The notes beneath the pieces are model-generated. The model worked only from the letters and a program-made list of their open reading frames with translations, did no database searches and was not told where the DNA came from. A DNA stretch of 21,553 nucleotides from a virus. The translations under genes and the position numbers were made by a program. The stretch spans positions 1 through 21,553 of the IMG/VR virus record IMGVR_UViG_3300036770_002751. One strand, given 5' to 3'. Of the stretch, positions 3,630 to 12,245 are shown piece by piece; the first letter of the stretch is position 1; each line of letters opens with the position of its first letter.

Positions 3630-3646
3630 AACCACTTTTCAAACTG
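3627..3646 (+). repeat. 20-nt 3' element, copy 1
   Basis: TGAAACCACTTTTCAAACTG starts at the stop codon of the preceding gene and ends 6 nt before a terminator stem. The copy at 7842-7861 matches at 19 of 20 positions, also starts at a stop codon, and has the same 6-nt spacing to its terminator. Confidence 0.7.
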
Positions 3647-3652
3647 GTACAC

Positions 3653-3679
3653 AAGAGGGTTTCACCACCCTCTTTTTTT
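3653..3679 (+). terminator. Rho-independent terminator after the 168-residue gene
   Basis: Stem 3653-3660 (AAGAGGGT) pairs with 3667-3674 (ACCCTCTT) around a 6-nt loop, followed by a run of T to 3679. Confidence 0.88.
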
Positions 3680-3690
3680 GTATAAACTTG

Positions 3691-3698
3691 TATAAATA
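3691..3698 (+). promoter_or_regulatory. Late promoter (TATAAATA) of the first GIY-YIG gene
   Basis: An exact late octamer 12 nt after the terminator T-run and 29 nt before the ATG at 3728. It gives the endonuclease gene its own late transcription start. Confidence 0.75.
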
Positions 3699-3727
3699 AT
3701 AGTGTGGAGTAAAAAGAGTGTGCCCTA

Positions 3728-4468
3728 ATGAAAAATACTTATTATACTTATGCTTGGTTGAGAGAAGATATGACGCCTTATTATGTGGGAAAAGGTATTC
3801 GTAATCGGGCATATTGTCCGCATAGAAGAGGTGATACTTATATGTCTCCTCCACCAAGAGAAAGAGTTTTGTTTTTAAAGAAAAACTTGACGGAGTTTGA
3901 TGCTTATAAACACGAAAATTATATTATTAGTATTTTAGGTTTAAAAAGTGAAGGCGGTATATTAATCAATATGTCTTATGGTGGCGAAGGAAGTTCTGGT
4001 AGAGTTTTAAGTGAAGAAACCAAAGATAAAATAAGACAAAAAAATAAAAATAAAAAACTAACAGAAGAACAAAAAGAATTAATTTCCAAACAAGTATCTC
4101 AAAGAAGATGGTGGAACAACGGTGAAGTAGATAAGCACACTATTGAATGTCCTGGTGATGGTTGGGTTCTTGGGAGATTATATTCAAGGAAATTAAGTGA
4201 AGATGAAATAGAAAATCTTAGAAAAATAAACACAGGAAAATATGTAAGTGAAGAAACTAGGCAGAAACAAAGTATTTTAAGAAAGGGTAAAAAACTTACG
4301 GATGAGCATAAGAGAAAAATAGGTCAAGCATCTAAAAAATTGGGTCTTGTTCCACCTTCTGCGGCAGGAAAAAAATGGTGGAATGATGGAGTTTTTCAAA
4401 AATTATGTTTTGAGTGTCCTGGTGAGGGGTGGGTTCTAGGTAGGTGTCCAGTTGTAAAAGTGTCCTAA
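3728..4468 (+). CDS. GIY-YIG homing endonuclease
   Basis: A free-standing homing endonuclease that would cut a target DNA site and promote copying of its own gene into phages lacking it. The N-terminal catalytic domain (about residues 1-95) carries YYTYAWL for the GIY half and PYYVGKG for the YIG half, then a conserved arginine (R25 or R28), and a glutamate in the KHENYII segment that fits the catalytic Glu. The rest is a lysine-rich DNA-binding region: NUMOD3-like segments (for example LSEETKDKIRQKNKNK, VSEETRQKQSILRKGKK) alternate with two copies of a WW-N-G...ECPG-GWVLGR module near residues 133-158 and 217-241. At 246 residues it looks complete. It has its own late promoter and lies between a terminator and the CobT-like gene's leader, as expected for an inserted mobile gene. 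Confidence 0.9.
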   Translation: MKNTYYTYAWLREDMTPYYVGKGIRNRAYCPHRRGDTYMSPPPRERVLFLKKNLTEFDAYKHENYIISILGLKSEGGILINMSYGGEGSSGRVLSEETKDKIRQKNKNKKLTEEQKELISKQVSQRRWWNNGEVDKHTIECPGDGWVLGRLYSRKLSEDEIENLRKINTGKYVSEETRQKQSILRKGKKLTDEHKRKIGQASKKLGLVPPSAAGKKWWNDGVFQKLCFECPGEGWVLGRCPVVKVS

Positions 4469-10673: not shown

Positions 10674-11191
10674 TGAACATCTTCGTAACTTCTCCCTGGC
10701 CTGCTGAGAGCGCCATTTGCCTGCCCGACAAGCATATTGTCAAGATGCCCCTAGAGTGCTGTCAAATGCTCTCTATTGTTGCCTCTGACAAGTGGGGGCA
10801 TGGGTACGGTACTCTTCCTAAGGCAGATGGAACCCCATACAAGACCGAGAAAGGAGCATTCCGCAATCATCCTTGCACCAAGTGGGCACTGGAGAGCATC
10901 CATAATGCCTACTGGTTAATTAAGTGGGGACTAAACTTGTCAGATGAATATTGCCTGCGGTATAATAAAACTCACTCATGTTATAAGACTCTTGTGGATG
11001 CATATTACTTGTTTCCCAAAGGTAAGATTACAGAAGTGACTCCATTTGCTCGTGCTATGCCTGAGGAGTGGAAGTTTGACGACACTATTGATACATTTGA
11101 AGCATACAAAAGGTACATCGCATCCAAACCTTGGGTGTCTGAAAACTATCTTCGTATGCCGTCAAGGCGACCTTCTTGGTTAGATAAATAA
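10673..11191 (+). CDS. Conserved phage-type hypothetical protein (MNIFVTSPxP...DKHIVKM family)
   Basis: A 172-residue protein starting MNIFVTSPWP, with DKHIVKMPLECCQML near residues 18-33, then NHPCTKWALES and a C-terminal MPSRRPSWL. I recognise this as a pattern widespread in phage proteins (short N-terminal strand, DK-x-VVKM-x-LE helix, NHPC-x-W-x-RES helix) but know of no established function. The ATG at 10673 is preferred over a TTG at 10664 because it follows the previous stop with one base of overlap. The 5' half is markedly GC-rich compared with neighbours (33 of 60 bases in 10681-10740), which suggests a different origin. No membrane or signal features are seen. Confidence 0.75.
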   Translation: MNIFVTSPWPAESAICLPDKHIVKMPLECCQMLSIVASDKWGHGYGTLPKADGTPYKTEKGAFRNHPCTKWALESIHNAYWLIKWGLNLSDEYCLRYNKTHSCYKTLVDAYYLFPKGKITEVTPFARAMPEEWKFDDTIDTFEAYKRYIASKPWVSENYLRMPSRRPSWLDK

Positions 11192-11200
11192 TGGTGCCTG

Positions 11201-11267
11201 GTTTGTTCGCACTTTTCAGGTGGGAGAGTAAAAATGCTCTCCCTTATAAATAGTAATGCGAACAAAC
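11201..11267 (+). promoter_or_regulatory. Nested inverted repeats around the late promoter of the second GIY-YIG gene
   Basis: Outer arms GTTTGTTCGCA (11201-11211) and TGCGAACAAAC (11257-11267) are perfect 11-bp complements. Inside is a 9-bp hairpin, 11222-11230 with 11235-11243 (GGGAGAG...CTCTCCC), loop AAAA. Read-through RNA could form the full structure; RNA begun at the enclosed late promoter could not. Confidence 0.75.
11245..11252 (+). promoter_or_regulatory. Late promoter (TATAAATA) of the second GIY-YIG gene
   Basis: Exact late octamer between the inner hairpin and the outer right arm. The expected start is near 11258, upstream of the ATG at 11280. Confidence 0.75.
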
Positions 11268-11279
11268 AACAGAGCAGAA

Positions 11280-11849
11280 ATGTATTACACTTACGCCTAT
11301 TTGCGTGAAGATGGAACTCCCTACTATATTGGTAAAGGTAAAGGAGACCGTGCATATAGAAAAGTTGGAAAACCTTGTGCTACTCCAAAAGATAAAAGTA
11401 AAATAATACAACTCAAAACAAATCTTACAGAAGAAGAAGCATTCAATCACGAAAGGTATATGATTTTTATTATTGGTAGGAAAGATTTGGGAACTGGTAT
11501 TTTATTAAACAAATCTGATGGTGGCGAAGGTAGAAGTGGATATATTCCAACAGAAGAACTAAAAAGAAATCAAAGTGAAAAAATGAAGGGGGAAAATAAT
11601 CCTCTCTATGGTAAAAGAGGTAAAGATAGTCCTCGTTATGGTAAAAAGCATACGCAAGAAACAAAGGATAAAATAAGAAATTCTTTAAAAGGAAAATCTT
11701 TTTTTAAAACACACACAGAAGAAACAAAACAAAAATTAAGTAAATTAAGAAAGGGTGAAAATAACCCTTTTTATGGAAAAAAACACACGGAAGAAACGAA
11801 GCAAAAAATGAAGGAGGCAGCAAAACGAAGAAAAGAAAAAGGTTCTTGA
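11280..11849 (+). CDS. GIY-YIG homing endonuclease
   Basis: A free-standing homing endonuclease of 189 residues. The catalytic domain opens with YYTYAYL (GIY half) and PYYIGKGKGDRAY (YIG half plus the conserved arginine), and has NHERYMIFIIG containing the likely catalytic glutamate. The C-terminal half is a run of NUMOD3-type DNA-binding repeats, for example GENNPLYGKRGKDSPRYGKK and THEET-like helices repeated three times. The ATG at 11280 is chosen because the late promoter at 11245 would start RNA at about 11258, downstream of the ATG at 11256; the protein also aligns there with the first GIY-YIG protein. It is inserted between gp45-linked genes and gp44 with an HNH-type gene immediately downstream. 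Confidence 0.9.
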   Translation: MYYTYAYLREDGTPYYIGKGKGDRAYRKVGKPCATPKDKSKIIQLKTNLTEEEAFNHERYMIFIIGRKDLGTGILLNKSDGGEGRSGYIPTEELKRNQSEKMKGENNPLYGKRGKDSPRYGKKHTQETKDKIRNSLKGKSFFKTHTEETKQKLSKLRKGENNPFYGKKHTEETKQKMKEAAKRRKEKGS

Positions 11850-11894
11850 TTTTCGCTGATTGTCGTGCTAAACTAAACCTGATTGGATTTTATT

Positions 11895-12245
11895 ATGAAC
11901 AGAAAAACCGCTAAAAAACTTTTAGCAAATGTGAATTATAGTCAAGGAAGAAATAGGGTGAATAAAAGACCCGTTAAAGAAATCTTACTGACGGAAGAAA
12001 CACTAATACAAAAATATGAAGAGCAAGATGGTAAATGCTATTGGAGCGGACTAAATTTAGATGAAAATTTCAACTACATTAAACATCATCCATTTGCTAT
12101 AAGTGTTGAAAGATTGGATAATTCAAAAGGATACACTTATGAAAATACAGTTTTAACGCGGAGGTTGTTTAATCTTGGGAGAATGGCATTTCCCGAAAGT
12201 GAGTTTAAAAATGTAATTGAAACCTTATCCAAAGAATTTTCGTAA
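11895..12245 (+). CDS. HNH-type endonuclease
   Basis: A 116-residue protein with the layout of a small HNH-type (beta-beta-alpha metal) nuclease: CYWSGL near residue 48, a histidine pair KHHPFAISVERLDNSKGYT corresponding to the H and the D/N positions, and YENTVLTRRLFNLGR supplying the conserved Asn. Only one Cys of the usual zinc knuckle is visible, so the metal-binding details are uncertain. The ATG at 11895 is preferred over a TTG at 11883; there is no good ribosome binding site. It lies 45 nt after the GIY-YIG gene and 4 nt before gp44, a typical position for a free-standing homing endonuclease beside the gene it targets. Confidence 0.75.
   Translation: MNRKTAKKLLANVNYSQGRNRVNKRPVKEILLTEETLIQKYEEQDGKCYWSGLNLDENFNYIKHHPFAISVERLDNSKGYTYENTVLTRRLFNLGRMAFPESEFKNVIETLSKEFS

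Follow-up and report, generated by a model that had tools for sequence, protein, structure and literature searches.

A probable mobile, modular RNA leader accompanying selfish nuclease genes in T4-like cyanophages

In T4, the homing endonuclease genes I-TevI, I-TevII and I-TevIII are preceded by an RNA fold that masks the ribosome-binding site on transcripts coming from upstream and that encloses a late promoter (PMC2988022, PMC3014915). In the leader of I-TevI, located in the td intron, the structure cannot form on the late RNA (PMC2988022, PMC3014915), and the leader described here is predicted to behave likewise. I-TevI differs, however, in being intron-borne with one hairpin described. It also lacks a late promoter just ahead of where the structure begins and an alternative local helix, both of which are predicted here. 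The genes Aeh1 mobE (HNH) and T4 segB (GIY-YIG) are free-standing and combine an RBS-hiding hairpin with a late promoter (PMC2988022), as is predicted here. Those are single cases, whereas the present leader forms a family across GIY-YIG, HNH, NUMOD3 and TnpB genes, and it goes beyond them in having the alternative helices P1a and P1b and two late-promoter boxes. The first-pass annotation of this locus had offered it as an independent example of such control on a free-standing gene; since mobE and segB are both free-standing and hairpin-gated, it is not new in that respect (PMC2988022, PMC3014915). The leaders of T4 lysozyme (e) and soc are similar in that the long RNA folds and is silent while the late RNA lacks the 5' strand (PMC3014915), but these are host-type phage genes which are not mobile and have another structure. 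The cyanophage structured RNAs manA, wcaG and PhotoRC-II are conserved and were likewise found by comparison (PMC2864571), but they involve other genes and other structures.

The window, meaning the whole stretch of DNA that was analysed, is 21,553 nucleotides long (IMG/VR record IMGVR_UViG_3300036770_002751). Its second GIY-YIG gene (11280-11849), on the + strand like all leader features given below, encodes a 189 aa homing endonuclease with NUMOD3 motifs, as identified from Pfam (NUMOD3, 2e-26), PHROG (homing endonuclease, 1e-17) and relatives. The original ORF call began at 11256. This ATG is excluded, being upstream of the RNA start predicted at 11258. The true gene start is most likely 11280, since the relatives begin with MYYTYAYLRED at this position. 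The annotated start of a GIY-YIG gene in Synechococcus phage S-SRM01 (QPX48040.1; L304:3792) falls within its leader, and the true start of that gene is probably ~60 nt downstream of the annotated one.

Bases 11183-11280 probably constitute a mobile, modular RNA leader that accompanies selfish nuclease genes, with the nuclease being translated mainly from its own late promoter. The elements noticed in the first-pass annotation are present as described. These are an outer inverted repeat of 11 bp with 100% complementarity (11201-11211/11257-11267), an inner hairpin with a 9 bp stem (11222-11230/11235-11243) and the late-promoter box TATAAATA (11245-11252). The folding check that it proposed gives -36.2 kcal/mol for the 111-nt stretch compared to -21.2 +/- 3.1 for shuffles (z -4.86), and 0 of 200 shuffles are as stable. 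The TATAAATA box by itself is not unusual, with three copies in the window and as many in 30 of 100 shuffles; its weight comes from its position and conservation.

Three features had been overlooked. The first is a second late-promoter-like box, GATAAATA (P_up, 11183-11190), at the 5' end of the mobile cassette. Its predicted RNA start is 11196, which is the first base of the structure. The second is a CCTG...CAGG helix (P1a, 11196-11201/11216-11221), in which the 5' strand GCCTGG pairs locally with TCAGGT, a partner supported by RNAalifold, strand permutation and the IMG/VR pattern described below. The third is the pairing of the same 5' strand with the SD side (P1b). The SD side is located at 11268-11276, contains CAG-A-GCA with a bulged A, and has 11195-11200 as its closed-state partner according to the fold and the covariation. 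The outer 5' arm (11201-11211) lies inside the P1a loop and is complementary at 11/11 positions to the outer 3' arm (11257-11267), which forms the 5' end of the RNA predicted to start at 11258 from the inner promoter (P_in). The GC-rich inner hairpin (P2, 11222-11243) is supported by fold and covariation. It is terminator-like in most relatives; in the window its T tract, TTATAAAT, is weak. The SD of the window gene (GAG) is also weak. The additional helix, the pseudoknot-type alternative pairing and the terminator-like hairpin of this leader have no counterpart in the I-TevI model.

Because a nucleotide search (blastn) with the region retrieved no record that spans 80% of its length, relatives were sought by protein and pattern searches. 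Most upstream regions of the 80 nearest IMG/VR relatives show this architecture, with widely differing stem sequences. Scanning every ATAAATA in 304 loci gave ~115 leaders, 71 of which are non-redundant and located upstream of GIY-YIG relatives. The window leader belongs to class I, which has the order TAAATA, N5, P1a 5' strand, arm, P1a 3' strand, P2, TATAAATA, N5, 3' arm, SD and ATG. The TATAAATA box is present in 53 of the 57 parsed leaders. The upstream TAAATA is found at exactly -11 to -6 before the first base of the structure in 53/57 class I leaders, compared to a background of 0.001 per position. P_up and P_in are each 5 nt ahead of a purine start, with P_up being the weaker promoter match (N[A/C]TAAATA). 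Some leaders were parsed by rules that demanded a T before the purine start, which makes the +1/-1 base statistics for P_up circular; TAAATA was outside the parse rules. P2 is followed by at least 5 T in 8 bases in 36/57 class I leaders.

Leaders were also collected from IMG/VR with a DNA pattern that named only the two boxes and CCTG...CAGG, leaving the arms, P2 and the gene free. This pattern returned at least 119 stretches, compared to 2 with a scrambled partner, and the compensated pattern GCTTR...YAAGC returned at least 120. The scans gave 170 distinct leaders (98 and 72), every one with matching outer arms. The cognate outer duplex reaches -15 kcal/mol or lower in 98/98 and 72/72 leaders, compared to 15% and 33% for non-cognate duplexes. 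Since the leader can be recognised without reference to the protein, it could be used to find new mobile nuclease genes.

The ORFs behind the pattern-found leaders are mostly nucleases, with GIY-YIG or HNH motifs in 132/157. Among the remaining ORFs are NUMOD3 proteins, further HNH types and two TnpB proteins. A single homing-endonuclease PHROG is matched by 44 of the 57 complete ORFs in the first set. One TnpB (L359:3851-5151) matches OrfB_IS605 (2.5e-25) and the Cas12f1-like TNB domain (1.2e-27); the other (L414:5144-6340) is recognised by sequence only. The presence of a homing-endonuclease leader in front of TnpB suggests that the phage handles an RNA-guided nuclease like a homing endonuclease. 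The comparison shows, at the level of sequence, that the leader is common to the unrelated GIY-YIG, HNH, NUMOD3 and TnpB nuclease families. This suggests a shared solution for silencing homing endonucleases until late. A similar leader, with stems rewritten yet matching, precedes well over a hundred other nuclease genes. A handful of T4 anecdotes is thereby extended to a family of more than 100 distinct leaders in aquatic phage contigs and two cultured cyanophages.

For the window's insertion site, S-SRM01 shows the empty arrangement. A pyrimidine-dimer glycosylase-type gene is interrupted at its 3' end by the homing cassette. The left side of the cassette (11140-11191) holds a recoded C-terminus of this upstream gene, and its right side holds a remnant of the old 3' end, AAACCTGATTGGAT. 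The right junction, CGTGCTAAACTAAACCTGATTGGATTTTATT (11850-11897), carries the remnant of the interrupted 3' end (..KPDWI), as identified from the S-SRM01 empty site and from sister cassettes. The P_up box is absent from the S-SRM01 empty site, and the comparison with this site indicates that the upstream TAAATA belongs to the cassette. A nearly identical leader recurs elsewhere, at a site preceding a gp59-like gene, where it is combined with either of two GIY-YIG ORFs; therefore, leader and ORF are exchangeable. A small HNH/endonuclease VII-type ORF (11898-12245) is located directly after the GIY-YIG gene. Sister cassettes have other ORFs in this position, which suggests that the site is a hot spot.

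With a covariance model (R1), six leaders were detected in Synechococcus phage S-SRM01, and phage B23 has two clear matches. The six S-SRM01 leaders have six different arm sequences before six different ORFs, all nuclease-like by annotation or sequence motif, and this cultured phage is thus a directly testable system. The computed arm pairings in S-SRM01 are mostly orthogonal, each arm pairing mostly with its own mRNA. In T4, R1 finds nothing significant (best E 0.047), so homology by descent to the T4 leaders, not being detected by this model, is rejected. With stricter filters, R1 has no match in Syn9, S-PM2, Syn1, S-CAM1, DSL-LC02, ACG-2014h or ACG-2014f, and Sf-CH5 has a class II leader only. 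Marine isolates therefore do not generally carry the class I leader. Searches of Rfam 15, group I introns included, with the leader stretch (by E-value) and with six loci gave no match at gathering score, and an origin as a known Rfam element or a piece of a group I intron is rejected. The leaders form a large family in T4-like cyanophages which is undescribed in the open-licence papers searched.

The first-pass annotation had named compensatory changes in relatives as the test of its proposal, with their absence counting against it. Covariation in the arms is massive. In the 57 class I leaders, uncorrected for relatedness, cognate outer arms are separated from permuted ones by z 23.3 (0/2000), and strand permutation of P1a gives z 9.8 with controls of 0.1 and -1.9. 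On a plain unconstrained MAFFT alignment, RNAalifold recovers both P1a and P2, and all nine predicted pairs show compensatory changes. The SD-side helix conserves its bulged A and covaries base by base. CCT occurs with AGAG(C/T)A, CTT with AAAGCA, TCT with AGAATA and CTC with GAAGCA. An ungapped test of this helix reached only z 2.8 because of the bulged A and was replaced by base-pair tables. In the 170 leaders found without reference to arms, SD or gene, two columns could be tested. Base +1 is associated with C/T at p 1e-24 and base +3 with G/A at p 5e-37 (Fisher, uncorrected for relatedness). A single 5' strand (11196-11200) is thus kept complementary to two partners that exclude each other, namely 11217-11221 and the SD side at ~11270-11276.

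The proposed T4-like gate is supported by this covariation and by the SD, which is predicted to open on RNA from 11258. The late promoter in the window is located between the two arms of the structure, as in a T4-type gate. On read-through RNA the SD has a computed unpaired value of 0.17, compared to 0.31 on P_up RNA and 0.69 on P_in RNA, and the SD is computed to be more open on P_in RNA in 54/57 relatives; the folding programs ignore proteins and co-transcriptional kinetics. Read-through RNA would fold 11195-11211 onto the 3' arm and the SD (11257-11276), which would close the start. The P_in RNA (from 11258) would lack the 5' half and hence be open. By analogy to I-TevI, segB and mobE, the gate would make the nuclease late and keep it off upstream transcripts. 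P2 and its T tract would end part of the upstream RNA ahead of the gene. The T tract is weak in the window's own clade, so termination at P2 is doubtful there. The late RNA made from P_up would have the first base of the structure as its 5' end. In a short P_up RNA, P1a would sequester the 5' strand and leave the arm in the loop, and the strand stored in this way could act as antisense either in cis or in trans. The first-pass annotation had counted a late start ahead of the hairpins against the gate. Such a start may be real, as the sequence has the TAAATA box at its fixed spot before the structure in 53/57 leaders, and late transcription may hence yield the structured RNA as well.

The leader could instead be a plain cis hairpin of the T4 type, which is a credible possibility although not the favored one. 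Only early and middle read-through would then matter, and the upstream TAAATA would be a stop codon and the 5' boundary of the cassette. This mechanism is known for I-TevI, segB and mobE (PMC2988022), and SD sequestration is computed on the read-through RNA. In 19/49 leaders the TAA of TAAATA is the stop codon of the upstream ORF, and the box overlaps the upstream stop in the window as well. However, TAAATA is kept at the same distance in 17/20 leaders with an earlier upstream stop, and a role as a stop codon only is rejected. P1a is conserved even though the outer pairing is by far the stronger of the two in 57/57 leaders (means of -6.7 kcal/mol for P1a and -22.7 kcal/mol for the outer pairing), and P1a would therefore be useless in full-length RNA except transiently. 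Neither the fixed-distance upstream box nor the conserved P1a fits a plain gate.

Since P1a is the weaker pairing in every leader, it should survive only where the 3' arm is missing from the RNA, as in a P_up RNA ending at P2. This is consistent with a more tentative explanation, in which a 50-60-nt P_up RNA, with P1a holding the arm in its loop and P2 as terminator, acts in trans as antisense on the P_in mRNA. The covariation of P1a, the fixed spacing of P_up to the purine start (53/57), the run of at least 4 T before TATAAATA in 127/170 pattern-found leaders and the six mostly orthogonal arm sequences in S-SRM01 point in this direction. However, the terminator is weak in the window's clade and class II leaders have no conserved P_up. 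The orthogonality may merely reflect separate cassette arrivals, and one non-cognate arm pair in S-SRM01 reaches -19.8 kcal/mol. A small antisense RNA is a reasonable but unproven suggestion from these sequences. It is possible, if doubtful, that each selfish nuclease carries a private antisense RNA gene, consisting of a late promoter and a ~55-nt hairpin RNA ending at P2. The loop and 5' strand of this RNA would be complementary to the first ~20 nt and the SD of the nuclease mRNA made from the second late promoter 62 nt downstream, and the same sequence would close the start in cis on read-through RNA. If this is true, resident copies could, through their RNA, shut off further copies of the same nuclease in co-infection, whether incoming or surplus, and leave other nucleases unaffected.

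G.U pairs outnumber A.C pairs by 26 to 4 in one set of leaders and by 25 to 0 in a further 113 distinct arm pairs, an asymmetry confined to the transcribed strand. The tolerance of G.U but not A.C shows that selection is on the transcript and that the pairing acts in RNA. I-TevI does bind an operator over its own late promoter (PMC2988022), but it is very improbable that the inverted repeats here are a DNA element, whether a recombination site or a dyad bound by the endonuclease or some other protein, since this asymmetry largely refutes a DNA palindrome or protein site and the arms have many sequences with no common motif (46 distinct core 10-mers). A leader peptide in P2 (ATG or GTG in the loop) is rejected, as it is not conserved on inspection.

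Nine leaders in the set (L043, L053, L059, L076, L103, L162, L178, L014 and L047:3229) are assigned to class II. These have a single large hairpin with the arm in its loop, followed by a T tract and ATAAATA, and no upstream box at a fixed position. The arm in the loop of the hairpin, GTGGGCAGCAACT...AGTTGCGTAAGTCCCAC, pairs with the SD region after the late promoter. The layout is pseudoknot-type with a common sequence core, and class II possibly represents a second RNA family.

The class I leader is not found before the first GIY-YIG gene of the window (3728-4468), where the fold is weakly better than shuffles (z -1.56). This gene has TATAAATA ahead of it at 3691-3698. The region 3640-3728 also contains a terminator-like hairpin, GAGGGTTTCACCACCCTC, followed by T7, and a short GGTACAC/GTGTGCC pairing adjoins the ATG.
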